Shown: in pieces, positions 18,668-61,911 of the stretch
Layout: each line of letters starts with the position of its first letter
Numbering within the stretch: position 1 is the first letter of the stretch
Origin: Branchiostoma floridae
Lineage: Eukaryota; Chordata; Leptocardii; Amphioxiformes; Branchiostomatidae
Direction of reading: 5' to 3'
Length of the DNA: 64,000 nucleotides
NCBI RefSeq assembly: GCF_000003815.2
Contig: NC_049996.1
Location: 14,009,929 to 14,073,928, forward strand
The notes under the pieces: model-generated
The model's input: only the letters and a program-made list of their open reading frames with translations
Databases searched by the model: none
What the model was told of the DNA's origin: nothing
Program-made: the position numbers and the translations under genes

Positions 18668-19116
18668 GTCGTTACTAGGGCTGGGTATCGGTACAGCGTA
18701 CCGGTACAAAACCGGTTTTTCTTATTGGACCGGTCCAGAAAAACCGGACCTGAAAAAAATAGGTGGACCGAATGCTGGACCGATTAGAAAATTAACATAT
18801 TATTTTATTAGGCATTCACACGTTTTGGCGCTTGCAGTTGGAAGAAAATGATAAGAGTGAAGTAGAGTAGAGTTTATAGTAATTTCTACCAAGGTTTACA
18901 ATCAATCGTACAGGTGCAGTTAGCGTTGTAGGATTTTAAAACGCCAGTGTAAGTCTAATACTCCACCAAACAGATTTCTTTGTAGTGAAATGGACCATTG
19001 GTATGAGTCATACTGAATCAGGTCCAGGTTCAGGTCCGGACCTGGACCTGATCCTTTGGACCTGAACCGGACCTGGACCTGAATCTTCTGTACCGGTACC
19101 CAGCCCTAGTCGTTAC
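18668..19116 (+). mobile_element. hAT-like MITE with 8-bp target duplication, copy 1
   Basis: The element spans 18,676-19,108 (433 bp), starts TAGGGCTGGGTATCGGTAC and ends with the inverted complement GTACCGGTACCCAGCCCTA. The exact 8-bp direct repeat GTCGTTAC flanks it (18,668-18,675 and 19,109-19,116). A TAGGG end with an 8-bp duplication is the hAT signature. Inner parts contain further inverted GGTCCGGACC-type motifs. The open frame at 18,486-18,851 runs into the element and is not a gene. Confidence 0.85.
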
Positions 19117-24500: not shown

Positions 24501-27500
24501 CAACACAAAGCGAACAAGGCAGGGGAAAAAGTACCGAATGTTGATTACAAAACTATATTGAGACTGGACAAACTAGAAGATAACATGGTTCGCTACAGAT
24601 TCCCGGAAAGACAAGTCCTCACCTTGACGACCCTGCAGAGGAAGTCCCCTGCCAGGAAACGGTCGGTGGCGTCCCAGATGAGCTGGGGGAGGATGTTGAA
24701 CAACGCCACGGTCAGATCCGCGATGCTGTGGGTTAAACAACGGAGAAAATGTCATCATAGTGCTAAATGGAAGAAGCATCAAATATGAGGGACAATGGTT
24801 TGCACAACTCACGTCAAAAATCGCTGGGGACGCTATTGGACAAAAGTGATAAGTTTTTGTGGGTCTTATAGTATGATGTTATGTATATACAATATTCTGT
24901 GTTTACTATGGGCCATTTCGTGCCTGTAATAAAGAATCAATTAACTGAAAGATTAAACAATTTAGAAGAATGTCGTCACAGTGCTAAACGGAAGAAGCAT
25001 AAATAAGGCTACAGTCACTGCATGAAAAGTGGGACATACCAATAGCAGTAAATGCCAGATATGGCTCTTCCTATATTGAAGCGACCGCTATCGTGATGTT
25101 TGATGTTGTTTCCTTTTTGGCAAACATTACCGGACATGCCTGACATTTACCGCTATTGGTAAATGCCACTTTTCGTGTAATGTACAGGGCAACATGCTGC
25201 AGGCGGTGGGGAAAATATGGACCGGGGCCGACATCATTTCCTGCCACATTTCTTAGACCTTTCTGGCACCTTTGAGCTACTTTCCTGTTTGCGTCCCGAC
25301 GTACTATATAGCATTCAAATGCCAAATTGCGAAACTGCGAAACATAGCATTCAAATGCCAAATTGCGAAACTGCGAAACAACTGATTACAATACCTCCGT
25401 TGTTGTCACTGGGGCAATGAAGTAAACGACATATCTAAACAATTAAGTGTTCAAATAAAAAAAAAACGAAAGAAAACTTAAGTTTCTCTAGATATAGAAC
25501 TGAATTCTAACATCACATCGATTATACTTGGACTTATCTACAGCCTTTAGCTTAACAATTCAACATTTAGCGTTTACAATTAAACGTACCTTGCGACAAT
25601 AGAAAAGAAAAAATAAACCAAAACACACAGGAATTAGACATGTTTAGTCATGGTTATGGTGTAAAAATAAACCAAAACACACAGGAATTAGACATGTTTA
25701 GTCATGGTTATGGTGTGATGTCCTTTGGAAGAATACAGATAAAGAACGCCATACACTACATGGACTCCAGATCTAACTGGAGATCTAACTCATATCACTC
25801 TCAGAACAGTAATCTGCCATGTAAAAAGTATCTGTGAATGATGCTTCCAACCTAATAGGATGTACAAGTGAATTCTGCCCAGTCCAGTAAAGCGTAATGA
25901 TTGTGAATACATGGACTCCAGATCTACTACATGGACTTACTCTTATCATTTGCAAAACAGTAGAAAGTATTTGTGAATGATGCTTCCAACCTAATAGGAT
26001 ATACAAGTGAATTCTGCCCAGTGAAGCGCAATGATTGTGAATGCAGGGCTTTGATGAAACGTGAGACCGAGATCTGTTGAAGGCTAAACAAGATAGATTT
26101 CCTCCGACATGCCCAAATCCAGGTATAACTCACACAGGCGATGTGTTTGCCGGAGTGGAAGGCTATCGACAGCTCAGCCTCGCCGCGGCTTCGTGCGTGA
26201 TTTTAACCATGTTTCTCATTCACCGTGAGGGGGGGGGGCATGTAGGAGCATCTAATGTATTTCTTAATTGTATTTCACTGCACTTGAGGCACCGTTACGG
26301 CACTGCGGGCTTCGAAAGATACTCAACGAATTTCAGAGATAAAGAACGAATTTTCTTCTAAGTCATATCTTATGTATTACATTTTAATTATGAGATAGGA
26401 GAAAATAACAAAACAGTGCCGCAGTGAACGAAACCCGCGGTGCCGCACGGGTGCCCCAAGTGCAGTGAGATACTACCTTTACTGCGCGTTGTAACTCAGT
26501 ATCGGCTATCGCTCGTGACCGAGCATTAGATGATGATATTTGATTGCATTACCTGCCTACATAGACTACTTATTTGATAGTGTTACGTGGCTATGGATAC
26601 GTAAGGCTAATTCCATGTAGTGTAGAAGTGAATTCATGTCAGTTCAGGCCTCAGTAAAGGCCCCCTTTCACTTGACGTGCGGCACGCTTGCGGCATTGCT
26701 GCGTTCGGAAGATGCTCAACGAATTTCAGAGATAAAGAACGAATTTTCTTACTTGTTGTGTATTTTGTGGTCTTCTATGTCACACTTTTACGTATTGCGC
26801 AATATCTGAATTATAACAAATCTGAGAAAATAACAAAACAGTACCGCAGTGACCGAACGCTGCTATGCCGCTTGCGTGCCGCACGTCAGGTGAAAGGGGG
26901 CCTTTACTGTTCGGGGGTGACGATGTGGCATCTCATCCCCAGAGTAGAACGGAAGAGTCGGGGTCACTACCTTGCATTCTATCTCATAAGCCTTGGCTTC
27001 AATATGGAAAAAAATTTGTCATGTTTCTGTAGAAAAAAAGTATGATTTTCCCTTTTACTTGTTTTCCATGCAAGACAAACGTAACGAAGTCTATAAGACT
27101 TTAGTATAACTGCCATGTAACATCGACGCGTGACATCTAGAAAGATGCACTCTTAATGTATTTTTGTATAAACAGGAATAAGTGTTTCTTGTTGCACAGA
27201 TGGTGTACTAGCACACCCAGGCTCACCATCAAAATGTCACAAACAACGTATGACTTCTCGTGCTAGTTTTCAAATGTCAAAGCGTGTACTGATACATGTA
27301 AACGTTGCAGCATCATTCATTCCCATTGTATATCCCATGTCCATTCTAATATCACGGTCACACTGTGATACGTTTTACAATACGTTTCTATGTAATCAAT
27401 GATGATTCTCAAGACTAATAGTTGAGTAAACAATGGTCGTAGAAATTTTTCAAACTAAACTTAAAGTTTTTATATCGAATTCTGATGTGGTTTTCAATAC

Positions 27501-38690: not shown

Positions 38691-38889
38691 TATACATGTA
38701 CGCGATTTATGTTTGTGTACACGATTTATGTTAACGAAATTTTATCGAATTTTAGACGCTAATAATCCTCAGTCCATCCGATTGAGATTGGAGATCTTGT
38801 CGCTTTTAATTTACCAAAGAGAACAGCGTTTTGCTTTGCTATTTTCACTTCCAAATGTTATTGAATAGCTTTCGCATACATATATACAT

Positions 38890-39740
38890 ATATGATTTTG
38901 GACGAATCTGACGGATGGAAGCAACATTTGACTCTCTGTTCTCTTCTGTCCCCACCACTACAACTAGACCTCGGGGGACAACAGTTAGAGCAGGTGCCAA
39001 CCGCAAAGCTACTAAGAGTACATGTGGTTCAGTACCTGACTTGGGACGATCACATCACTAACATAGTGAAGAAGTGTAACTCAAGTATGTGTCAACTGAA
39101 CAGGATAAGAAACAAACTACCTCCTAGGATAAGGAAGGACCTGGCACAAACCCTGGTACTCTCTCACTTGAATTATTGTTCTCCACTGTGGGGAAACACA
39201 GCAGCTAAGAACATCAAACGCCTCCAAGTGGTGCAAAACAGAGCAGCAAGGTTTGCCCTTGGATGGGATAACAAGACGGACAGTGCAACAAGGTTACACA
39301 TCTTGGGGTGGTCACCAGCAAAGGAAAGAATACAACAATTTGAAAGAAGTTTTGCCAACACTGTACAACCAACTCACACTCCAGTCAACTAACAGTACGT
39401 ACCAAACTAACACGGTCAACAACAACAAACTGCATCAAACTGTCAAAACCTATATATATATATATACTAGTAGCTAGGACCAATGCAGAAAAGAAGCGCT
39501 TCCTCTACCGAATGGCTTGCCACTGGACCACAGTTACTAAATGAACTTGTATTTTCTCTCGGCTGTATAGCTTGTAATGTACATATTATGTTATGTATGT
39601 ATATAATGTTGTGCGTGTATTGATGTATTTTATATGGTGTATTTAATGTCAGCTGTGTACTGAAGGACACAAAAGAACTAGGAGATTAATTTCTAGCCTG
39701 CAAATGTCCACCACCTGTGTGCTCATTAAACCCACCAATG
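38890..39740 (+). mobile_element. 5'-truncated non-LTR retrotransposon, RT C-terminal part
   Basis: Frame 38,892-39,392 reads KLLRVHVVQYLTWDDHI, then LPPRIRKDLAQTLVLSHLNY and KNIKRLQVVQNRAARF. This is the C-terminal region of reverse transcriptase in CR1/L2/Jockey-type LINEs. A frame change near 39,340 is followed by LPTLYNQLTLQS and, in another frame from 39,476, RTNAEKKRFLYRMACHWTTV with a stop at 39,541-39,543. The 3' UTR runs to about 39,736. It lacks the catalytic RT core and endonuclease and is frameshifted, so it is dead. Confidence 0.8.
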
Positions 39741-41659: not shown

Positions 41660-42131
41660 CTTCTGTTTTGGGGTGGGTACCTGTACAGAAAATTCAGGTA
41701 CAGGTACGATCCAGGTCCAGAGGATCAGGTCCGGATCCGGACCTGAACCTAAACCTAATTGTCTGTGAAAATTGAATGGGTGATACTCAATTTCCATTTC
41801 GCTACAAAGGAATCCGTCTGGTAGAGTATCCAACTCCCACTGGTGTTTTGAAGCCCTATCATCATGTAAACAACAGTAACTGACTGTGTTAACTTGCACC
41901 AAGTTTGACTGTAGAAACTTGGTAGAAATGACTATTAACTCCTCTATGCCTCACTATTGTTGTCTTGCTGGATCGGTAAGCCACAAAAACACGCAAATGC
42001 CTACTAGTATAATTTGTTCATTTTTCTAATCGGTCCAAAATTCGGTCTACCGATACTTTTCAGGTCCGCTTTCATCAGATCGGTCCAAGAAAAACACGTT
42101 TAGTGCCGATACACCCAACCCTACTTCAGTT
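41660..42131 (-). mobile_element. hAT-like MITE with 8-bp target duplication, copy 3 (old)
   Basis: Inverted relative to the copies at 18,676 and 54,683. The element spans 41,668-42,123 (456 bp), with ends TTGGGGTGGGTACC and the complement of TAGGGTTGGGTGTATCGG. Flanks CTTCTGTT (41,660-41,667) and CTTCAGTT (42,124-42,131) match 7/8. The inner AGGTCCGGA-type motifs are shared. The greater divergence marks it as the oldest of the three copies. Confidence 0.78.
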
Positions 42132-48488: not shown

Positions 48489-48715
48489 ATGGGTCAGACC
48501 CTCACCCGTGCGGCCCAGTGGACGTCCGTCAGCGAGGGGGGTCAGGGGAAGCTGGAGTTCACCCCCCTCAATGAGGCGCTGCTTAACGAGATCATCAAGT
48601 TTGCAGAGGGGTTCGCGTCCAAACACCAGCAGGAGGCACAGACCGTGTTCCGCTCACCGCTAGCGTGGGAGACTCAGATTGCGCCCTCCGCATTTTCAGG
48701 GGCGTATGAAGTCAG
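48489..48715 (+). CDS. ODAD2: ARMC4 coding exon 1
   Basis: 227 bases from the ATG to a GTCAG|GTAAGC donor, phase 2. The exon itself begins at 48,470 after a T-rich TTTTTAG acceptor. The ATG at 48,459 lies upstream of that acceptor, so 48,489 is the start, matching the vertebrate MG.. start. Confidence 0.9.
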
Positions 48716-51700
48716 GTAAGCTATATCTATGTTTAGCCTCGCCCCTACTAAGAGTACATCAACTGTGAGGGGACATTCAGCAATGCCATCTCATAAACAT
48801 CTAAACAGAACAATTTTAACACTCCCCCTTCCATTTTACGTCATAGCTGATACAAACCTGATGCAAAAGGGCATCCCAGTAGAGAGAAGGTTAAACAAGT
48901 TTACAAAGTCAGTCAATTGCAGGTGTATGTTGTTGTAGCAAGTACCTGGTAATGCAATTTGTTCGTAGAATTATTTTGGTTACCTTTTCATTTGGTCCAA
49001 TATTTCATTGTTCTATGAGTATAAATCAAACTATTATTGATGGATATCAGCTGATAGATATCATAGATCAGATGCAAATATAACAATCCTACCTGAAGCA
49101 TCCTCAATCACGGGATGGATGGCTTTATGTCTCCATCCAAAGGGATGAATATAACATGTATCTGGTCTGTATCTGACTGGGTCCCTTACTGCTTAATTAG
49201 CCATTATGACAGAAGGTGTCGGAAGTTTAGAATTTAGAATATTTATCAATCCTTGTTTTGAACGTCTCTGCAGTGACAACAAGGCTGTATCGGAGGCGAA
49301 GGCCCCAGATGGACAGCCTTTACTGGTGCTGGAGGCTGCCGGGGGGAAAAACACGGTCAGCGTCAGCTCGTTCGACCAGCTGTCCGCAATCCTGAAGTAC
49401 TCCGGGGACAAGATGAGGGAGGCCAGGGCCTGCTTGGAAGGTGGGAGGCATTTAAAAGACATATTGTATTTCTTTCTTTAAACCTCATCAAATAAAGAGA
49501 CTCTTCTTACAACAACTGCTCTATATTTCCACTGATATTCCGATGACCGTCTGTCACCTTCCTCAATAAGATCAATTTCTTTTTAAAAAGTATTTTAGAA
49601 TGGTATGGTAATAAAATCACAATTGACTTCTATTGTAGCACTCTAGGTCTGTTATTAGTAGAAGCAGCGACTCACCACATTATTCTTCCCTCGGAGAGGG
49701 TAGATTAGCTACTTGAATACACCATGGTGTCTTCACTGATTAAAACTGTGCTCCTAGCTATAGTGGCTGGCCCTACTGGGGGTGAGAGATTGTATAAACA
49801 TAGGATATGTAATTCATATCTGATTGAGTGAAATGTTTTGTAAATTTTTAGCCAATCGGGATCCGGCAGCCAAGATTCTCGGGGATGGCTACGCAACGAT
49901 TGAGGGAGAAGACAACTCCATGCTGCGGCTGTTGGAGAAAGTGAAGAAGGAGGATGGACAGGAGGAGGGGGAAACTCTGCAGGCCACCATGCGGCTCCTG
50001 GTCATACTGCAGCAGTTTGATATGCAGCTGCTCAACATGTCCCTGCAGCACATCTCAAAGTAAGGGTTATATAAGGGCTGCTGTTGTAGGGGGAGGGGGG
50101 TTGGGGATGGTAACAGGAGGAGGGCGAGACTCTGCAGGCCACCATACGGCTCCTGGTCATACTGCAGCAGTTCGACATGCAGCTGCTTAAAGGGGCATTC
50201 CACTCCACACGGGAGTGTTATTTTCCGATAGATATTCATTTCAGGAAGTGATAACTGCATCCGACTTCACATTTTACGATAAAGTACCCAGTTGCTCCAC
50301 ATGCCTCAAAAGCATTCAGTCTTCTACTAAACTCCCCAAGTACCCTCTAATTGAATTAATACTATGGCTGAATACAATGCAGAACTTTTAGGTAAGGTTA
50401 CCAAGCTAATTTCAGGTTCGCTAAGAAATTTCGTCTTGTTCTTGTATTCTTTGCTATCTTATGAGCAATTTGCCTTCTCAGTGTGCTCAGCGTACCTCAT
50501 TTATTCCGAAAATATGTACGATAAACAAAGTGTCTATGCGTATAGGGAATGCATGGGTAGGGTCTACATGGGTTTAGTGAGTGTCATTATTGTTTTATAA
50601 AGCACACATCACGTAATTCATCCCAAGGTGAGTTCTACAAAATTCGGCTGATTATGTATTCATTGACACATTATTTATTGGAAAACAAGACTCCCTTCTG
50701 GAGTGGAATGCCCCTTTAACATGTCCCTGCAGCACATCTCAAAGTAAGGAAGGGTTAGGAATCAAGGAAATTAAACTACATGTAATACTCACGACTGATG
50801 TTTGCTATGAGATTAGCTTTTACCTGGCATCTGCCATGGTTTCTTCAGCTTTGATGGGTCACGTGACCGGGGGGGTTGGAGCTCACTCTCTCTCAGGTCA
50901 CCTGACTGGACGAGTGTGTTATAGATGGGAGGAGTCTCTGCAGAGTCGGTGGTATTTCACACATTTTTCCAAACCCCAGAGGGTCCTCCTAGTTTTTCAC
51001 TTGATTGTCAAGGCATGCATTTTCTTCTGTGCTCTTCAGTTGACCTCAATACAACATGATTCCTCAGATTTGAGCATATTTCAACACACTTAGTCTAAGT
51101 CTTGAAGATTTATAATTTTCTCATCCTTCAGACATGCTCTAATTTATTTCATACATCAGCCATGGAATATTTCAAACCATCTTTATTCCAACATCCCTTA
51201 CCACCTGTAAAAATTTTTCTATTATTAGGTGTTGAAGGGTTAATGTAACTGTTTGTGTATCATAGAAATATTTTAAAGACTACTTTTTTTTGGTGTTGAA
51301 GGGTTAACCTAACTAACTGTTTGTGTCCCACAGGGAAGTTCGGCTGACCCCAGCAGCAGTCAACAGTGAGGTGAAACTGCTGCAGTCCTTCTCTGGTGAT
51401 GACAGGGACAAGACAGTGCTCAAGTCCATTCAGTACACTTCAGGTAAGAATGAAACTCCTTCTGGACTTCAAACAGCCAATTCTTAATCTAAGGCCTAGG
51501 AAAAATCTGTCATTTTTCCAGTTACCCAACCTACCCTAGCAAAAATCTGCTTAACATAATAGGATTGCTAGTAGAGCAATCGTATAGAGTTTCACTGAAG
51601 CGACATCCGCCGTCTGAGTCGACCGGGCTCACCTTTCACTTATCATTTCATCCAAGAGTTTCCGGATTTTAGTTCTCATCAAGAGCTTCTACCCAGCGTG

Positions 51701-54700
51701 TCTTAACAACTGAGACACACGATTCTGCCAGTAAACGATGTCTAGCTTATTTCGGTCAACCGCTAGCCAATGCAAGGGATGCAGACAAAATATTGACCCA
51801 CATAAGTTCCTTACCTTACCTCATAACTACCCTTGGACTATGAGTTTAACTACGACATTACTGACAGACCCCATACCTACCTTCCACAGACTATAAGTTT
51901 AACAATGGTACTGACTGACCCCATACCTACCCTCTTCAGACTATGAGTTTAACAATGGTACTGATTGACCCCATACCTACCCTCCTCAGACTATGAGTTT
52001 AACAACATTACTGACTGACCCCATATCTACCCTCCACAGACTATGAGTTTAACAATGGTTGCCGGGCGCCGCCATGGCGACAGGTCCATGGGGACATCTG
52101 CTACGTGGTCATCAAACCTCACGACACTGACCTGCTGTCTGTGAGCGCCAGCACCGCCGGAGTCTACATCAACGGGGTAAGGGCTTTCTGTTCAGTGCTT
52201 TACAGAGTTTGTGTTAAAGTTCAAACTTGTAATTTTGGAATTTAAACAACAGTGACAAAATACTGCAAAGTACAATAGAAATTGTCCCTGCTGTCTGTGT
52301 GTGAGAGCACTGGCAGAGTCTGTATCAAAGGCTTTCTGTTCAATGCTTTTAGAGTTTGTGTTAAAGTTCAAACTTGTTATTTTTTAGGATTGAAACAACT
52401 GTGACCAAATACTGTTACAGTTTAATGGAAATTGTCCTAGCTTTCTGAAATGAAAATGGCCTTCAATTGAAATTATGAAACAGACAGATTATGTGGTGAA
52501 CATTTGATGTAACTTGAAAATATTGTACAAAGTCTCTCAATTCACTTACATGATGAACCTATTGGCAGTTCTTTCACTATAGAAAGCTGCAGTTTTAGCT
52601 ATCATGCAGTGTACTGGTTCTTGGTCTTTTTTTAATGTGGAAAACCATTATAACATCAGTGTCCCGAGAGAAAGTGTCTGTAGACTGGGTCTTTAGTCAC
52701 AATTATCAATAGATCAACCACCATGTAAAATATTCATGGTGCAGCATTGAGTGGCTTGTGGTCTGTCTGCTTTGTTGAACAGTCCTGATCTGGTGTCAGC
52801 TTTAAATGTTTGTTTGGGCAATAGGGCTAAAGACAATTTAATTAGAATTAGAATTCCAAATGATTGCTTTAATGCGGTTAGTACGTACAAAATATAAAGG
52901 ATATATGAAAACGCTTAAGTGTAAACTTTTAAAAGAAATCTTACAAAAATATTAGGTCAAATGGTTATTTCTTAATGAATGAAGATAGAATTATGATCAC
53001 AATGACTAATGCTGTTAAGTTAGTTTAGTACTTAAAAAGGCATAGAAATTGCATTATTTTAGCACATGAAGGATTTATGAAGTTTTCTAGTGTTTTCCGA
53101 AGGAAAGAGGATAGAATTATAATGTTGATGATTAATGCTGAAATACTTTAAAGTTTATATAGTAGTCCAAAATACAATATTGAAATTTTATTCTTTTAGC
53201 ACAAGGATTTATGGAGTTTTCTTGTGTTTTCGTAGGGCTTTGAGAAGGAGAATTTCTCGGACTTGAAGCACGACAGAGAGGGTGAAATCTACAAGGACCT
53301 GGTGACACTCCTGAAGGAGAAGTCTGCCGTGTTTGCTGAGAACATCGCAAAACAGGTAAAGACTGAGAAGTTTTGAGCATTGCCTTGGGGGCGGAGGCAT
53401 ATTTGTTGCTTTTTTTTCATCTTAATCTTTAATGATTCACTTTACACATGTGGATATCACACCACTGGTTTATGAAATGTGTCCTAACTTTGAAGATGCT
53501 AGTTAAACATGCAATAATAGAAATACTACCTGGTATACATTTGGATATCACATATCTGATGGAGGTGTATCTTGTATTCTATCCCTTAGTAATAGCTTAC
53601 AGATACTAGTAGTTGAGCAACCTTGGCAGTATTGTACAGCAAAACAAACGAATAAGTAATGAACTTATGTCACCCCAAATGACCTTTGACAGGACTATTG
53701 GATATAGGAAAATTCTTTTACACAGTCAACCAATTAGCCCTCAATTTGTTTACATTTCAATGTCTCTCAGAAACCTTCCTCATCGAAACGTGAGCAAAGT
53801 CAGTAGAAATTGGTTGTGTAGAAGAATTCTCCTATATTCTACCAACCTGATGAAATCATTTTTGGAAACGTTGACAGGATTGCAAGTTGGGTTACCTTGG
53901 CCGTATTGTACAGCAAAACAAATAAATAAACAAATGAACTTTCCTGTATCAGAATCTAAGGGAACACCTTTCTAATCAAAATGTAAGCAAAGTGATTACA
54001 AACTGTTTGTGTAAAAGAATTCTCCAACATCCTATATTCTACCAAGTTGAACCTGATGAAATTATTTTCTGACACTCTGACAGGACTTCACCCTTCGTGA
54101 GGACGAGACCACAGGAAATCAATACGACATCATGGACAGCGGAGACGAGGGAGATGGCGACAACACACACCGCACCAACGAGGACGCCAAGAAGGACAGC
54201 AAGGAGCCACAGAAGGCGGACAAACAGAAGAGCAACTTGAAGAAAACCGGAAAGGACCGGACCCCGCGGAAACAGCCGCAGCCGTCGCTGAAGTGGAAGA
54301 ACCTGGGACTGGGGGAGGAGGCTGACGAGAAAAAGTGGGTAGACCGTAGAGGTCATTTGAAAGTCATTAGAATAGAATTCCAGATATTGTGGTTTTAATT
54401 CATTGAATTTAGCTGTAATAAAGATTGGGAGTTTCTTGTAAACAACTTGATAGTTCTCTACATTGTTCAGAATAATTCCAATTCTTTTGTCCATCTATCC
54501 ATTATTTCATTTATTCGTTCATTGATTTATTCATTCTGTTGCAGAGAGGAGAAAGACCAGATCAGGGAAGGAAGTGCAGGAAAGAAGGAGAAGAAGAAGG
54601 TTACAGTCCAGGAGTCCAAGGGGCGAGTACAGTAAGTCCTACATCCTCCTTGCGTATTTGGCACACAAACCTCACATACTACTAGCGCTGGGTATCGGTA

Positions 54701-57700
54701 CAGCGTACCGGTACAAAACCGGTTTTTCTTATTGGATCGGTCCAGAAAAACCGGACCTTAAAAAATTAGGTGGACCAGATGTTGGACCGATTAGAAAATT
54801 AATATATCATTTTATCAGGTATTCACACGTTTTGGCGCTTGCAGTTGGAAGAAAATGACAAGAGTGAAGTAGAGTAGACTTTATAGTAATTTCAACAAAG
54901 TTTTACAGCCAATCGTACAGGTGCAGTGAGTTAGCGTTGTAGGATTTTAAAACGCCAGTGTGAGTCTAATACTCCACCAAACAGATTTCTTTGTAGTGAA
55001 ATGGACCATTGGTATGCGTCATACTGAATCAGGTTCAGGTCCGGACCTGGACCTGATCCTTTGGACCTGAACCGGACCTGGACCTGAATTTTCTGTACCG
55101 GTACCCAGCCCTACATACTACTAATCGCATGGACGATGCCTATAGTATATAGTATATAGCCAAACCATGATAATTGTATTATAACATTTTTGAGTCAATG
55201 TGAAAACATTACTTTGTCCTGTTTGTGAGTCGTGTATTGATCTTAGGGCTGAAAGTCAGGTACTTTTCTTAACATTTAAAATTGTTCTTGAATTTACTGA
55301 CCAACGTCACAAAGAAACCTCTTATTTTGATTTCCCATACTGTAAGACAGTGTAACTCATAGTGAAAGCCGTCTTATTCACATAATTAGTAGCGAGGTGA
55401 CCAAATTTTGTGTAATTGCCCTCCTTGATTTTATCATAGTGAGTGGTTCTTCTGAATTCCTTGTAAAATGTTGTCAGCATCTGCCATGCAGACTGGCCCT
55501 CTTTAGAGTCTGATTCATTCAATGCATCAAGATGAATCATTGTTTTTCCCTCCGACAGTCCTGTAATTAAGGGTCGTAAGTCGAAGACACCAGCTCAGGA
55601 CCAGGAGGACACGTTCAGCGAGAGTTCCACAGAGAGCATCATGACATCAACATTATCCTTGTTTCTCCCTCACACAGTCCTGTAATTAAGGGTCGCAAGT
55701 CAAAGACACCAGCCCAGGACCAGGAGGACACGTTCAGCGAGAGTTCCACAGAGAGTGAGGAGGAAGAGGAGAGCCCCGACCGGCGCCAGGAGGCGAACTC
55801 TGACCTCCCCTCCGAGTACTGGCAGATCCAGAAACTCGTCAAGTACCTCAAGGTACAGATAGAGATAAAATACGGTGTTCACCTGAGGTACCAGCCCTTC
55901 TGTGGGTAGGATTGGCCAAAGGCCAAGACCCACAGGAGGGCTGGGACTGAGGGTGATACGAGATACACTGTGTTGTATTTTATTCATGTCATACTGGCAG
56001 ATCCAGAGACTGGTACCTGAAGGTACAGACAAAGATTCAAAGTTCTACTGCCTGAAAATCCTAGGCTTTAGGTTTTGAACCACTCATACCGGGAAGGACC
56101 CCTACTCTTTTCAATACGTGTGGTGGGTTCTTAAACGAGAGGTGTGGCTCTCCTCAAACACTGGACCATTAAGAGTCCTATCCTAGGAATGGCCCTAGCC
56201 AAAGCTTGGTGAGATTGGGACAGGTTTGAAAATAGTAGGACCTAAAACATAGTACTCAAAACAACTACAGTTGGAAAATGAATCTGGATGTTGTTTAACT
56301 GTTACCTAAGGAAAGACTTCTAAACTGCTGCTGCATGTATCAATATTCCTCAGTGTTCTTTTGACAAAGCATACTCGCCGCTGTTATAAAACAACACAAG
56401 TAATCCTTTTACTTTTCCCACAGGGAGGGAACCAGACGGCCACCATCATTGCTCTGTGCTCAATGCGAGACTTTAACCTGACCCAGGAGACGTGTCAGCT
56501 GGCGATCCGAGATGTCGGGGGGCTGGAGGTTCTCATCAACCTGCTGGACACAGAGGAGATCAAGTGCAAGGTGGGAAAAGGCCAGGAGGAATTATGGGAA
56601 TGGCAATGCCTTGATTTCTATGGATAATAATTCGGGTGTTACGATGGAATGACTGGGTAACTAGCTTCACCCACGTATAAAAAAATTAAAAGTAGACTAG
56701 CATGAAATTTTCTTTTTCATAAGGAACAATTGGTAAATGGTAACATCAAGCAAGGAGCTCTCATACTCTCATCAACTGTCATACTTCCACTAGGTGCCAT
56801 ATCAAAAAACATTGTTATAGAGGCCTTCGCAAGATTGTCTTGAATATTTGAAGTGTATATACCTTAGGACTACTGATGCTGCATTTTTATGTCCCTTTCA
56901 GTGACTTTGAATTGTTTTCTTATGTGGTGGCTTATTATGGCATCCATTGAAAGTTTGAGAGTGGATGTACATGTACCTTGGTATAAAATGTCTAATACAA
57001 TGTATCTTATTTTCAAACTGTTTTACAGATTGGATCCCTGAAGATCCTGAAAGAGATCAGTCACAACGCACAGATCCGGCGTGCGATCGCGGATCTCGGG
57101 GGTCTGCAGACCATGGTGAAGATCCTGAAGTCACCTGACAAGGACCTGAAGTGCCTCGCAGCGGAAACCATCGCTAACGTGGCCAAGTTCCGTCGCGCCC
57201 GCCGTACGGTCAGACAACATGGCGGCATCAAGAAACTGGTGAGTACTGGAAAATTGTGGGGATTTAATGTTGGGATAAAATGGAGTGTTTAAGTTTGCAG
57301 TTAGAACAAGCAGACAGGCTGTCAGAAGACAGAACGGTCTAGCATTTTCATGGTGAAGAGGTTACAGCAAAAACCAGGAACAGTTAGAATTTCAACATTT
57401 ACAGTAGTTTCAAGTTTTGAATCCCCAATATGCCAGGCCCTGTGAATGATCGATCAGTTGCTCCTTCTATCATTTGAGTAAAGTACTGCATGTAGACTAT
57501 CATAGATCGTTGCATAATTATATAGCAACTCCTCTTATAGAAACAAAGTCAAGTTGCAGTTTTTCAGATAACTACAAATTCTGTGCTGATAAAATTAAGA
57601 GGTGCAATGCTTCACTTAACTGCTAGGTGTCTCTGTCAGCCTTAGTACACAGGCAGACAAACAACACTTTAAATGTTTAAGCTTGATGATCTCTTTTTCC

Positions 57701-60700
57701 ATTGTGTTCCTCATGCGCTTGAGCTTGATGTTCATAACAAAATGTGGTATTTTTCAAAGTTACGTCAGCTACATTAGTCCTGACAGCAGCCTGATAAGCA
57801 AACAATTACAGGTCAGGTCCACTTTGAAGTTTGGAAATCATTGGGTGCGCGCCAACGCAGGAAACAAGTAGCCCTGTCCTGTTTTCCCAAACACTCAGGA
57901 ACTGAATATGTTTGCCAGCTGTAACGTATTAACATGTAGAGAATGGAGATAACATTGAACTTTGATTCAGTTTTAGATTTGTTTTTCATTTTCATTCAAG
58001 TTCATATTACCATAGGCCTTACATATAGTCCCTCCCTCTGATGTATTGGCTGGCAAATGAATCTCTCTGTTTCTTTTTTCTGTTAGTTCCCTTTCTTCCT
58101 TCATTGTTTTGAAACTGAGAAAACATTACAGGACAAAGAAATAATATCAAGACGTAGAAAACAAAAACAAGGATACTCAGAAGAATGAGCTTTGTAATTC
58201 TTCTGACAACTTCCTAAACATAAGATACATTGAAACTCAGGCCCTGAGGGTTCTCATTTGACAGCTGTGCCCTTGGTAGTGACCTTGTGATGTGGAAGTG
58301 ACCTTGAGATTCAAAACAAACTTTTACCTAACAGAAAACACCATTTAGTCAGGAAGGATGGTAAACAAATAGCTGTGTTTAGGTGTCCTTCACAATTATA
58401 TTAATGAGCGCACACAAAAGTCCTTCACTGTCACCTTAATCATGACCTTGTGGTGACCTTGGTGCAAGATCGTTTGACCTCATCTAGGTTGATTTGATTT
58501 CTTAGTTTGATTTTCTTGTAAACGCTTTCAACTTTTGATTTACCATTCCAAACACTTTGAATACAGTGTCATAAAAGGAACAACCTGTCAAAAGATCCCA
58601 AATTATGTTCCGCTTATGTTCGTCATAATTTTTTTTTTTTTTTGTTCAACTGATGTCATTTGACATCATGTCCAAAGATTGATTCTGAGCAGGGCTGTCT
58701 CACTCATTGTTGGGGAGCCCATGCTGTTGATTTTTCTAGTTGAACTAATCATATAACGTCCTCGAACTAATGAAAATAGATCTTCAACAGTTTCATGTCA
58801 TGAAGTGTTTTTGGGTGGATGGTGTCCCAACAAGCAAAGAACTAGCCTGATTAGATCTCGCTTATAGCAGTCCCCAACATAGGGAAGGGGCCAGTTTATA
58901 TAATATAGCCCCAGACAGCAGAGTTTGTGTTACACAGACTAGGAAGGAACAGGTCTTAGGGACAGTCCTGATCCCAACTGAAGTCAGCAGATAATTCGCA
59001 AACAGAAACTTTCCAAAGGTTGAAACAACAGCACATGTTGTCCTGCACTTGTCAGGTGGGAAAACCTTCTGTCAACAGTGGCAAAAGTTAATGGGGTACA
59101 AAAATCCCGCTGGGTACACCCAGATTACCTCCTGGTGAAAACAGATTAGGAAAGCAGGCCAGGATTACACAGGAGATATGTTAATCCTGTCAGAAATTAA
59201 TCCCCTTAAGGTTTGAAGTACAAGAAAACAAGTCAGTAGTTCTTTCAACACAAGCATGGATTGTCCTGATCAACATGTTGAACAAGAACTGTAAACAAGA
59301 TCGGTGTCCAACTGGACATTTATCATGCAACAGAATCCCAAAAGGCTGGAGTTCAAGGTAGTCTGCCTTCCTCTTAAACAGTCATGTAAGTTTCCATAGA
59401 GTTGAAATCATTGTGCATTTGTTGCTAGCATTATCATAAACATATACATGTGATGAAATGATAAAAAGCAAAATAGGAAAATTCTTGAAATAGAAAATCC
59501 TTTTTTAAATGTTTGGACATTGCAAAAAGTGAGCAATCTGCAATACCTAGAAAAAAGTTTCTTAAACAATATATATTGGAGGCCCTTTCAAAGATTATTC
59601 TTCTGTACCTTTCTGTACTACTTTAGTGGACATACATTTGTACATTGTGTTCCTTTCCCTAATCTGTAGCGGAAGGAAGAGGCAACGAGGCATTCTAACA
59701 TGTTTAACCTCAAATTACCGGACTGTAAAGTGGACTGGTCAGATCTCTCATACCTATCTTCAGAACAAGTCAGGGGAGACAAGAATCATAGCTAAAAAGA
59801 TGCTCATAAGTCATGTTTTCTCAATGTGGTTCCTTTCAAGTTGAAACGTTTTCAATGACAAAAATGTGAAATAAAAATAAAACCATGCTAATTTCTTTAA
59901 GCATCTTAGGCTTTCTACATTTTGTTCAATTTTATAAAACTTTCATTTTTATTGCACTACTAATACTACTTACGTTACATGTACTACTAGTATGTTTCCA
60001 ATGCTTATGTTCAACCGTCAAGCTCAACTACATGTATTAGCAAAAACAAAGTGACTAAAAAGTGTATATGAGCCCCTTCCCCAACTTGTCAACTGATTTA
60101 CCCCCAAGTCCTGACCAGTAAATCCCCTCCCCCTAACAGTAAATGATCTACCGTGACTAATCGTGATGGTGACGCCGCTACCCTACCCCACATATCGTGT
60201 CTGTGCTATCTGTGAGTAGACAGGAAATGGAGTTCTCTTCGGAACTTGTGGAGAAGAGAACTACCGTGACTAATGGCATGTTTAGGCAGACAGGGGATAC
60301 TTCTTGCTTGAGGCCACTAATTAACCAGGAATGAACCACAATTACAAACCGCTGTCTGCTGGTTCTAGTTGATTTATCTCACAGATTAACAGGAGTGATC
60401 AAGTAATGATTGTCTGTACTTCTGTACTGGGTGGGGGCACTTTCTTTTCAATTCAAAATGAGAACATATAATATTCTGATTATTACCTTCAGTAACACTT
60501 GAATGTTTTTGGTAGCAGTTCTTTGTATGTACATTATATGTATGTTTGTATGTGGTTTATCAGCATAACTAAGAAGTTATTGACGGAATGTCATGAAATT
60601 TTACATGTGGTTACATGTAGGTCATGTCCTATCAAAGAAAATGATCAGATTTTGGGCCCCCCAGTGGCTTTCCTTGGTACTGAAGCAGAGCGTCCAGTTT

Positions 60701-61911
60701 TGATCTGACTGTGTTTAACCATCTTTTTTTCTGTGGAAGTTTGTGTTGCATATTTTGTAACTCCAGAAATAAGTGTTTTTGTTGTTTTTATATGAGTAAA
60801 GTGACTCTTTGCAGTTTTGAAACAAAGCTAGAATTATCTGTGCATTTGATAATTTGGTGTATTTTTCTTAAAGCAAAAATTTCCCCACTTTTCACCACAG
60901 GTTGGTTTGCTGGACTGTGGCCCTCTCGGCTCCGTCCCGATGACCCCTGAGGTCGAGAAGGACATCGAGGTTGCCCGCTGCGGAGCGCTGGCTCTCTGGA
61001 GCTGCAGTAAGAGCACTAAGAACAAGCAGGCCATCCGTAAGGCTGGGGGCATCCCACTGCTGGCACGGCTACTCAAGTCTTCACACGAGAACATGCTCAT
61101 ACCGGTCGTGGGGACTCTACAGGAGTGTGCCTCTGAGGTAAGGGGTGAAAAAAAGTTCTGAAGTAGTTATAGGAACTTTTCTAACTTTCCAGACCTGTAG
61201 AATATAAACTTGGAAACACTTATAATCTACATGCGCTGATACCGGTCGTGGGGACTCTGAGGTACGGGTAGAAAAAAGTTCTGAAGTAGTTATAGGAACT
61301 TTCCTAATAAGACCTGTGTGTTTGTAAAATATAAACTTGGAAACACTTTTAATCTACGTGCTTATACCGGTCGTGGGGACTCCACAGAATGAGGTTCGTC
61401 TTTGTACCAACAGTTTTTTAAGAGAGAGTACTGAAAACATTTTATTCTCCTGAAAGGTCTATGCTCTAGGCTGGCTAATAAACGCTTCACAAGTCTCTTC
61501 AATGTCTCTTCCAGTTATAATTTATATGCAATGTACAATGTATATCATATGCCCATATCATATGGTCTTCATTATACAGTGAACTGTACGATACTTTGTC
61601 GATTTCTTTGCTCCAAAATTTGGACATTTCTTTGCATTAGCAGGATTCAATAAATAATGTTCTTTATTTAAGACTTTTAAAGCATATTTCTCCTCAAGAC
61701 GCCTGTGGTCATTTCATGTTTCAAACCATGAAAAATATGTATCATCAAATTAAAGTTTACCATGATTGTGCATATGAATATTCTGATATTGCCTTCACAG
61801 CAAAGTTACCGGCTGGCCATCCGGACAGAAGGAATGATAGAGGACCTGGTGACCAACCTGCGTAGTGAGAACCAGGTGCTCCAGATGCACTGTGCCTCCG
61901 CCATCTTCAAG
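48489..61911 (+). CDS. ODAD2: ARMC4 / ODAD2, outer dynein arm docking complex subunit, 3' incomplete
   Basis: Thirteen exons with GT-AG introns and fully consistent phases give 729 codons; the human protein has about 1040, so the last ARM repeats lie beyond the window. Residues 1-320 form the conserved N-terminal region (start [35 protein letters not shown]). Residues 324-480 are a charged, disordered linker, more variable than in vertebrates, ending in the acidic [12 protein letters not shown] stretch. From about 480 on come armadillo repeats, nearly identical to vertebrates ([49 protein letters not shown]). In vertebrates ARMC4 docks outer dynein arms on axonemal doublets of motile cilia, and loss causes primary ciliary dyskinesia. 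An X-box lies at the 5' end. Many exon edges are tandemly duplicated (listed separately). Confidence 0.93.
49274..49440 (+). CDS. ODAD2: ARMC4 exon 2
   Basis: 167 bases between a CTCTGCAG acceptor and a GAAG|GTGGGA donor, phase 2 to 1. It encodes [20 protein letters not shown] and [17 protein letters not shown]. Confidence 0.9.
49852..50059 (+). CDS. ODAD2: ARMC4 exon 3
   Basis: 208 bases, TTTTTAG acceptor, CAAA|GTAAGG donor, phase 1 to 2. It encodes [16 protein letters not shown] and [10 protein letters not shown]. Its 3' half is duplicated downstream. Confidence 0.92.
50105..50750 (+). pseudogene. Partial copy of ARMC4 exon 3 split by a transposon
   Basis: 50,105-50,190 and 50,716-50,750 together repeat the 3' part of exon 3 including the donor (CAAA|GTAAGG). 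Against exon 3 I count five synonymous changes and one conservative change (Met to Ile), so the reading frame would be open without the insertion. There is no acceptor, and a 525-bp element sits in the middle. It is a tandem duplicate, now broken, or a misplaced haplotype fragment. Confidence 0.8.
50191..50715. mobile_element. 525-bp MITE with TTAA target duplication
   Basis: Terminal inverted repeats start AGGGGCATTCCACTCCA at both ends and extend to about 35 bases with about 4 mismatches. TTAA flanks it at 50,187-50,190 and 50,716-50,719. The uninterrupted exon sequence (CTGCTCAACATG in exon 3) shows the pre-insertion state, so the boundaries are exact. TTAA duplications are typical of piggyBac-type elements. 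There is no transposase; the small frame at 50,364-50,600 is not recognisable. Confidence 0.85.
51228..51333 (+). repeat. Tandem duplication of the exon 4 acceptor region
   Basis: GGTGTTGAAGGGTTAA occurs at 51,228 and 51,292 (offset 64). Both copies run into an acceptor-like end, GTGTATCATAG then GTGTCCCACAG. Only the second is followed by exon 4. Confidence 0.75.
51334..51443 (+). CDS. ODAD2: ARMC4 exon 4
   Basis: 110 bases, CCCACAG acceptor, TTCAG|GTAAGA donor, phase 2 to 1. It encodes [19 protein letters not shown] and [11 protein letters not shown]. Confidence 0.9.
51837..52058 (+). repeat. Exon 5 acceptor array: 50-bp minisatellite with decoy splice sites
   Basis: The first bases of exon 5 (ACTATGAGTTTAACAATGG) and the acceptor before them are repeated at 51,890, 51,940, 51,990 and, as the real exon, 52,040, exactly 50 bases apart. 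A diverged first unit at 51,837 lacks AG. Each upstream unit has CTTCCACAG, CTCTTCAG or CTCCTCAG, and if used would read DYEFNNGTD or similar and then TGA (for example 51,916-51,918). Confidence 0.9.
52040..52176 (+). CDS. ODAD2: ARMC4 exon 5
   Basis: 137 bases, CTCCACAG acceptor, CGGG|GTAAGG donor, phase 1 to 0. It encodes [19 protein letters not shown] and the GVYING end. Both edges are tandemly duplicated. Confidence 0.93.
52132..52435 (+). repeat. Duplication of exon 5 end and donor side of intron 5
   Basis: CTGCTGTCTGTG occurs at 52,132 (exon) and 52,288 (intron), offset 156. The shared part continues through GGCTTTCTGTTCA and AGAGTTTGTGTTAAAGTTCA. In the second copy the donor GGGGTAAGG has decayed to a form without GTAAG. 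Confidence 0.8.
52436..52975 (+). other. ARMC4 intron 5, remainder
   Basis: Nothing recognised; AT-rich intron. Confidence 0.4.
52984..53235 (+). repeat. Duplication in front of exon 6
   Basis: Two diverged copies, each with an ATAGAATTAT..AATGCTG block (52,984 and about 53,110) and a later TTTTAGCACA..AAGGATTTAT..AGTTTTCT block. The second copy ends at the exon 6 acceptor; the first has TTTTCCGAAGG at that place and no AG. Confidence 0.65.
53236..53355 (+). CDS. ODAD2: ARMC4 exon 6
   Basis: 120 bases, TTCGTAG acceptor, ACAG|GTAAAG donor, phase 0 both sides. It encodes [20 protein letters not shown] and NIAKQ. Confidence 0.9.
53624..54083 (+). repeat. Duplication including the exon 7 acceptor
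   Basis: GTATTGTACAGCAAAACAAA occurs at about 53,630 and 53,905. Both copies end in a CTACCAA..GATGAAAT..TGACAG acceptor, first at about 53,878 (followed by GATTGCAAG) and second at 54,083 (followed by exon 7). The first acceptor thus is a potential decoy. Confidence 0.75.
54084..54334 (+). CDS. ODAD2: ARMC4 exon 7 (charged linker)
   Basis: 251 bases, CTGACAG acceptor, AAAAA|GTGGGT donor, phase 0 to 2. Lys/Glu/Asp-rich sequence such as [15 protein letters not shown], ending [11 protein letters not shown]. It corresponds to the variable linker of vertebrate ARMC4. Confidence 0.88.
54545..54631 (+). CDS. ODAD2: ARMC4 exon 8 (charged linker)
   Basis: 87 bases, GTTGCAG acceptor, TACA|GTAAGT donor, phase 2 on both sides. 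It encodes EEKDQIREG and a lysine-rich segment. Confidence 0.85.
54675..55121 (+). mobile_element. hAT-like MITE with 8-bp target duplication, copy 2
   Basis: 431-bp element (54,683-55,113) nearly identical to the copy at 18,676, starting TAGCGCTGGGTATCGGTAC and ending GTACCGGTACCCAGCCCTA. The exact repeat CATACTAC flanks it (54,675-54,682 and 55,114-55,121). It sits in ARMC4 intron 8, only 43 bases after the exon 8 donor. Confidence 0.88.
55122..55556 (+). other. ARMC4 intron 8, remainder
   Basis: Contains a 72-codon minus-strand frame (55,322-55,540) of protein-like composition but no recognised domain. Otherwise nothing. Confidence 0.35.
55559..55757 (+). repeat. Duplicated start of exon 9 (119-bp unit)
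   Basis: The acceptor plus about 77 bases of exon 9 are present at 55,559 and again at 55,678. The exonic parts differ at three positions, all synonymous (CGT/CGC, TCG/TCA, GCT/GCC). The 119-base offset is not a multiple of three: use of the first acceptor with read-through gives a stop at 55,683-55,685. Confidence 0.88.
55678..55852 (+). CDS. ODAD2: ARMC4 exon 9 (acidic linker to first ARM)
   Basis: 175 bases, CTCACACAG acceptor, CAAG|GTACAG donor, phase 2 to 0. It encodes the Ser/Glu-rich stretch and [16 protein letters not shown], which is almost invariant in vertebrates. The second of two tandem acceptors is taken as the productive one because it keeps the frame. Confidence 0.9.
55818..56036 (+). 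repeat. Duplicated exon 9 end with donor
   Basis: ACTGGCAGATCCAGA occurs at 55,818 in exon 9 and at 55,993 in intron 9. The second copy has a small deletion but keeps GAAGGTACAGA, a second donor-like site. Confidence 0.75.
55865..55983. mobile_element. ~119-bp fold-back element in intron 9
   Basis: The ends are ATAAAATAC and GTATTTTAT. A strong inner stem pairs CCAGCCCTTCTGTGGGT with ACCCACAGGAGGGCTGG around GGCCAAAGGCC. It lies between exon 9 and the duplicated exon 9 end, so it may have been inserted after or during the duplication. Confidence 0.55.
56424..56570 (+). CDS. ODAD2: ARMC4 exon 10 (ARM)
   Basis: 147 bases, TCCCACAG acceptor, CAAG|GTGGGA donor, phase 0 both sides. It encodes [19 protein letters not shown] and [14 protein letters not shown], an armadillo repeat. 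Confidence 0.93.
57029..57238 (+). CDS. ODAD2: ARMC4 exon 11 (ARM)
   Basis: 210 bases, TTTTACAG acceptor, ACTG|GTGAGT donor, phase 0 both sides. It encodes [27 protein letters not shown] and [13 protein letters not shown]; about one and a half ARM repeats. Confidence 0.93.
57239..60900 (+). other. ARMC4 intron 11 (3.7 kb)
   Basis: The longest complete intron of the gene in this window. A poly-T run lies near 58,630. The short motif CTACCGTGACTAAT recurs at about 60,150 and 60,261. No further exon fits: exons 11 and 12 are contiguous in the protein. Confidence 0.6.
60901..61137 (+). CDS. ODAD2: ARMC4 exon 12 (ARM)
   Basis: 237 bases, CACCACAG acceptor, TGAG|GTAAGG donor, phase 0 both sides. 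It encodes [20 protein letters not shown] and [19 protein letters not shown], almost identical to vertebrates. Confidence 0.93.
61101..61400 (+). repeat. Three copies of exon 12 end plus donor-side intron
   Basis: ACCGGTCGTGGGGACTC occurs at 61,101 (exon 12), 61,241 and 61,366. Copies 1 and 2 continue through AAAAAAGTTCTGAAGTAGTT and AATATAAACTTGGAAACACT. The second copy lost 16 exonic bases but kept GAG|GTACGG; the third keeps GAG|GTTCGT. Confidence 0.88.
61801..61911 (+). CDS. ODAD2: ARMC4 exon 13 (ARM)
   Basis: 111 bases, CTTCACAG acceptor, CAAG|GTAAGA donor, phase 0 both sides. It encodes [19 protein letters not shown] and MHCASAIFK; the protein continues in later exons outside the window. 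Confidence 0.92.

Follow-up and report, generated by a model that had tools for sequence, protein, structure and literature searches.

The ARMC4 (ODAD2) gene of Branchiostoma floridae holds nine tandem duplications at the edges of its exons, most of which carry the splice junction itself. After comparing ARMC4 with dynein heavy-chain genes found elsewhere in the genome, we favour, at a probability of roughly 0.6, the explanation that these copies arise from a general process of tandem duplication that is densest in the distal parts of the chromosomes and whose products are filtered by selection on exons. Judged from its sequence, ARMC4 can be added to the amphioxus genes known to carry ‘mirages’, as such boundary repeats have been called, and is unusually rich in them.

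Duplicated exon edges in ARMC4

The window, by which we mean the whole stretch of 64,000 nucleotides that was analysed, covers 14.01–14.07 Mb on an 18.55-Mb contig (genome 513.4 Mb, 431 contigs) and places ARMC4 about 4.5 Mb from the contig end. Exons 3–13 were positioned by means of splice sites and reading frame. When joined they give an open frame of 597 codons with zero stops, the product of which matched the solved ODAD2/ARMC4 chains 9cpc, 7rro and 8j07 with E values below 1e-200 and almost the full length aligned. For exons 1 and 2, the bounds used in the tests were 48489-48716 and 49225-49441, those set by eye being 48489-48715 and 49274-49440; no duplication event lies nearby. The initial annotation had claimed nine exon-edge duplications in this gene, and self-comparison together with local alignment recovered all nine. 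Seven of them span the junction (exon 3 donor, exon 5 acceptor and donor, exon 7 acceptor, exon 9 acceptor and donor, exon 12 donor), and the other two, at exons 4 and 6, only abut it, ending 8 bp and 5 bp before the exon, respectively. The features are as follows.

49852..50059, + strand: exon 3, the 3' 108 bp of which, with the donor, are the master copy (splice sites, open frame, ODAD2 match)
50105..50749, + strand: copy of the 3' end and donor of exon 3, in two halves (50105-50190 and 50718-50749) with a transposon between them (alignment; decoy donor leads to a stop)
50187..50719, no strand assigned: MITE-like element at 50191-50715 (525 bp) within the exon 3 copy, carrying long inverted repeats (~44 nt) and flanked at either end by TTAA (sequence comparison)
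51219..51326, + strand: 64-bp tandem duplication before the exon 4 acceptor (alignment)
51851..52059, + strand: exon 5 acceptor array, a 50-bp unit present four times and made up of intron end, AG and the first ~19 bp of exon 5 (alignment)
52040..52176, + strand: exon 5 (open frame, ODAD2 match)
52131..52435, + strand: ~150-bp tandem duplication over the exon 5 donor, 78% identity, the copy being without a donor (alignment)
52968..53231, + strand: ~126-bp tandem duplication before exon 6 (alignment)
53236-53355, + strand: exon 6 (splice sites, frame)
53611..53941, + strand: duplication in the interior of intron 6 (53611/53885), touching no exon (alignment)
53773..54085, + strand: ~193-206-bp duplication with the exon 7 acceptor, 75% identity (alignment, decoy test)
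54084-54334, + strand: exon 7 (splice sites, frame)
55525..55755, + strand: 119-120-bp tandem duplication with the exon 9 acceptor and the first 78 bp of exon 9, 91% identity; the decoy acceptor leads to a stop (alignment, decoy test)
55678..55852, + strand: exon 9 (open frame, ODAD2 match)
55817..56036, + strand: duplicated donor end of exon 9, copy at 55992-56036, 80% identity (alignment)
60901..61137, + strand: exon 12 (open frame, ODAD2 match)
61090..61387, + strand: three ~124-140-bp copies over the exon 12 donor, the two decoy donors each giving a stop (alignment, decoy test)

The copies are 9–28% diverged and most events consist of two copies only, an array of many head-to-tail units being found at the exon 5 acceptor and, in part, with three copies, at exon 12. 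The master in the exon 5 acceptor array is its final copy, and each of the three decoy acceptors upstream of it leads to a stop. AG/GT splice signals were located by script in the copies at exons 3, 4, 5 (acceptor), 7, 9 (both ends) and 12, and use of any of the 10 decoy splice sites tested at these places gave a premature stop, as none of the master edges did. These results suggest that the copies are dead intronic decoys, which the mature mRNA is predicted to ignore. The donor copy of exon 3 is 91% identical to its master over 86 columns and 100% identical in a 32-bp tail. Since the 525-bp element splits this copy, the copy must predate the insertion and a coding role for it is hardly possible. 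The TTAA target of the element is presumably that of a piggyBac-like transposon.

At the threshold used, the duplication finder returned 52 segments in the window and none in either of two Markov shuffles. We measured placement against random positions that spare whole exons. In the set of events passed to this test the exon 9 donor copy was left out, being below threshold, and the event in the interior of intron 6 was included. Seven of the nine merged events touched an exon edge (within 10 bp) compared with 2.4 expected (P=0.0018); with a tolerance of 3 bp the count was five of nine (P=0.034) and with 20 bp eight of nine (P=0.0004). The view that the events in ARMC4 exceed random placement at exon edges is thus borne out, with a P value that carries the selection of this gene for its striking appearance.

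The initial annotation had also pointed to earlier reports of junction-spanning minisatellites in amphioxus genes, and correctly, the class having been published under the name of mirages (PMC3087553, PMC3902484). Mirages are described as minisatellite-like tandem repeats over exon–intron boundaries in two globin genes (Gb6 and Gb9), with Adh3 cited as well (PMC3087553), and further mirage genes are PGBD5 and troponin C (PMC3902484). The globin paper reports two haplotypes of one gene, of six and of three units, one of them rebuilt from trace reads, gives RT-PCR results suggestive of regular splicing, and calls the mechanism of origin unclear (PMC3087553). The ARMC4 duplications resemble mirages in that tandem copies lie over an acceptor or a donor, at either exon end, with units of 10–160 bp and with AG/GT intact or lost (PMC3087553, PMC3902484). 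They differ in number, there being nine in ARMC4 and one or two per gene in what these papers describe for the globins and PGBD5, and also in that the events are mostly two-copy and as diverged as stated above. Literature searches for mirages and for duplications at exon boundaries found no genome-wide count of these structures. A suggested role of mirages is that of a source from which new introns are made (PMC3087553), and in intron gain by internal tandem duplication it is likewise the duplicated stretch holding splice signals that is the proposed raw material (PMC3087553, PMC4974935); ARMC4 differs in showing no new intron and in that the ten decoys tested all lead to a stop.

Exon edges in dynein heavy-chain genes

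The initial annotation had proposed a wider test for clustering at splice junctions, a version of which we ran on a set of dynein heavy-chain genes taken from this genome. These were found by a Pfam search that gave 110 AAA_6 matches, 104 of which were used, the other six lying outside the stretches taken; coding intervals were marked through open-frame comparison among paralogues. The resulting set comprises 19 genes in 20 stretches, 195 kb in all (11.5 kb of it N), with 221 coding intervals and 59 duplication events, and edge copies are therefore not peculiar to ARMC4. Long arrays at exon edges are found here too, for instance in stretch L034, where a ~153-bp unit is repeated about eight times. 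In the gene L043 (C1:213500-223400), which is situated ~0.2 Mb from its contig end, local duplications make up 41% of the bases, and eight of the nine events lie at exon edges.

Our strictest null forbids spans that swallow exons and omits three of the 59 events, either because the span swallows a coding interval or because the event could not be placed. Under this null, 25 of 56 events touched an exon edge compared with 18.3 expected (P=0.03), an excess of 1.37-fold that fell to 18 of 48 compared with 14.2 (P=0.14) when L043 was left out, and to 25 of 56 compared with 20.5 (P=0.12) at a tolerance of 20 bp. Two cruder nulls gave no significant edge excess in the dynein genes, the 28 of 59 events at edges comparing with 27.7 (P=0.52) and 23.9 (P=0.14) expected. 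When ARMC4 and the dynein genes were pooled, 32 of 65 events lay at edges compared with 20.6 expected (P=0.0013). The idea of nucleosome-sized units was considered and dropped; the smallest period was 110–210 bp in 16 of 35 edge events and in 9 of 34 other events. Edge events per coding interval were highly uneven between the dynein stretches (P=1.5e-5), 10 of the 20 stretches having none. Close to exon edges duplicated bases were scarcer than deep within introns (ratio 0.36, bootstrap 0.18–0.54), in a measure that long arrays bias, and we gave no weight to such base-level coverage profiles because arrays push bases off the edges.

A preference for junctions as a general rule was rejected, since two of the three nulls showed no significant excess and the third, in which exon-swallowing spans are forbidden, only a weak one. 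The description of exon-edge duplication as ‘systematic’ carries over poorly from ARMC4 to the 19 dynein genes, where the clustering test yields the weak excess given above, not significant without L043 or with the wider tolerance. The proposed mechanism tied to splice junctions is not well supported, and the statement that duplications are rare in intron interiors does not extend to the dynein genes, in which deep-intron duplications are common. Outside ARMC4 the events are placed nearly at random, and any targeting of junctions is no more than a minor influence.

Distance to the contig end

The fraction of duplicated bases in the 19 dynein genes rose towards the contig end (Spearman rho -0.81, P=2.6e-5), and edge events in the dynein stretches did the same (rho -0.84). 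The stretch L050 was excluded from the correlations because it belongs to the same gene as L051. Leaving out the most distal gene gave a rho of -0.78, as did restriction to the 14 stretches free of N; noncoding bases by themselves gave -0.79, and the four detection settings tried gave values from -0.78 to -0.81. Up to 6 Mb from the contig end there were 25 edge events per 82 coding intervals, compared with 3 per 139 beyond (Fisher P=1.4e-9, uncorrected for the cut, which was chosen on the same data). GC content was tried as a driver of the gradient and rejected, its own correlation with distance being non-significant (rho -0.26, P=0.28). In ARMC4 and the dynein stretches taken together there were 69 local direct events and 20 local inverted ones, and the inverted pairs listed (at most four per stretch) leaned towards the contig ends as well, more weakly (rho -0.42, P=0.08). 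We regard the gradient as a strong, unreplicated lead, since the hypothesis, prompted by a pattern seen by eye, and the 6-Mb cut come from the same data, since one gene family was used and since contig ends are presumed to be chromosome ends.

Position leaves part of the excess in ARMC4 unexplained. Five dynein stretches at 3.0–5.6 Mb from their contig ends predict 2.75 edge events for 13 exons, compared with the seven observed (P=0.02).

A gradient of this kind has a counterpart in human, where GC-rich VNTRs whose units exceed 15 bp show a 21-fold enrichment in the 5 Mb next to chromosome ends (PMC7608644). The likeness lies in long-unit tandem repeats, VNTRs and minisatellites, being concentrated near chromosome ends; the difference is that the human repeats are GC-rich and polymorphic (PMC7608644), whereas the amphioxus gradient has no significant link to GC and was seen in one assembly. 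For B. floridae itself, two results sections of a recombination study report correlations of crossovers with transposable element density and gene density, and no chromosome-end effect appears in those sections (PMC12500494); the terms ‘telomer’, ‘distal’ and ‘chromosome end’ do not occur in the main text of that paper. The same study places amphioxus non-crossover tracts mostly under 200 bp (PMC12500494), a length similar to that of the majority of units in ARMC4. Chromosome position is a candidate predictor of mirages that can be tested, for instance by comparison with the recombination map available for B. floridae (PMC12500494).

Origin of the copies

The differences between copies and masters were assigned to codon positions. 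The two least diverged copies in ARMC4, that of exon 3 and that of the exon 9 acceptor, have all nine of their exonic substitutions at codon position 3 (six of six over 110 exonic bp and three of three over 78 bp, respectively), a pattern that has a P of 0.0009 to 0.002 under plain drift of a dead copy. For the dynein genes we took one best copy per event, giving 26 events, in which third positions accounted for 84 of 147 differences (P=0.004 against 46% expected, P=0.05 against 50%). A matched analysis was carried out on the 12 of these 26 with at least 20 intronic sites. Here codon positions 1 and 2 showed 24 differences, compared with 27.7 expected if the copy alone drifts and 55.4 if both do, and third positions showed 32 compared with 23.7 expected (P=0.06). 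Codon positions 1 and 2 therefore diverge about half as fast as the intronic parts, so that edge copies should stay detectable for longer than copies within introns, which may account for part of the weak edge excess.

A predominance of third-position changes, as in the two ARMC4 copies and, less sharply, in the dynein share, is what would be seen if the copies came from the other haplotype, with exchange or conversion between diverged alleles inserting an allelic exon edge that differs at synonymous sites. Gene conversion at a heterozygous site in B. floridae is indeed reported to be orders of magnitude likelier than new mutation (PMC12862219). We nevertheless consider such an origin improbable: published synonymous diversity is 0.0397 (PMC12862219) and the exon 3 and exon 9 copies, by our estimate, imply several times more; more diverged copies differ at all codon positions (2, 3 and 4 differences at positions 1, 2 and 3 in the exon 5 donor copy); and positions 1 and 2 of the matched dynein events fit ordinary drift of the copy. 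Synonymous differences such as those of the exon 3 and exon 9 copies would also result from an assembly artefact, a possibility named in the initial annotation, in which alleles of a very heterozygous genome were set side by side. This is highly improbable in view of units of about 50–200 bp, several of them beginning within exons, of the 9–28% divergence, and of the TTAA-flanked 525-bp element in the exon 3 copy, which is hardly possible in a working allele; moreover, a genome search with exon 3 matched only its own place and the adjacent copy, and the six- and three-unit globin haplotypes include one obtained from trace reads (PMC3087553). The retention of codons in two copies might be taken to mean that copies act as functional alternative exon edges, but with an early stop from 10 of 10 decoys and one copy split by a transposon we find this scarcely credible.

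It is also conceivable that a process directed at junctions, such as splicing, R-loops or transcription-coupled repair, would duplicate DNA preferentially at exon edges. The edge counts in ARMC4 (7 of 9 compared with 2.4) and in the pooled set (32 of 65 compared with 20.6, P=0.0013) argue for it, as do exons 5 and 9, each with an event at either end, and the excess of ARMC4 over dynein genes at a like distance from the contig end (7 compared with 2.75, P=0.02). Set against these are the choice of ARMC4 for its striking look, the dynein excess of just 1.37-fold that hinges on one gene and on the tolerance, the cruder nulls (28 of 59 compared with 27.7 and 23.9), the scarcity of duplicated bases near edges (ratio 0.36, a measure biased by long arrays) and the half of the dynein stretches without an edge event. 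On balance we judge a junction-directed process to be unlikely.

Under the preferred explanation, that of general tandem duplication filtered by selection, short head-to-tail duplications would be produced by a genome-wide process, be it slippage during replication, unequal exchange or template-switching repair, that would be strongest in the distal parts of chromosomes, recombination or repair being the presumed cause. Duplications within exons would be removed by selection. Where a duplication covers one exon edge, it would be tolerated thanks to the edge that is left intact, and the surplus copy would persist in the intron as a dead decoy. Edge copies are probably slightly over-represented because their conserved exonic arm keeps them recognisable for longer. 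The dynein comparison indicates that mirages may need no mechanism specific to splice sites. Tentatively, chromosome position might set the rate at which genes gain copies that span splice sites, distal genes continuing to acquire them through recombination-linked duplication; position would then govern exposure to new splice sites and possibly the gain of introns.

Several further features were seen in the window. At 45800-45650 on the reverse strand, intron 1 of a gene with a Peptidase_M20 domain, which we take to be PM20D1-like, holds a copy of the end of exon 1, 108 bp away. The copy reads KIMFILDEG, compared with KIAFILDEG in the exon, and codon position 3 accounts for 9 of the 16 differences over 42 bp. 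A paralogous origin of this codon-preserving copy was considered and rejected, since the copied peptide matched its own genomic place only (E up to 0.001). In a rhodopsin-type receptor gene (7tm_1) at 24733-25005, also on the reverse strand, a duplicated stretch reaches just short of an exon acceptor. An open frame at 38865-39392 resembles, by eye, a fragment of a retrotransposon reverse transcriptase, with no Pfam match at E up to 0.001. Finally, a dispersed element of ~440 bp occurs three times, at 18673-19108, 54680-55113 and 41670-42112, two of the copies being 93% identical and the third inverted and about 70% identical.
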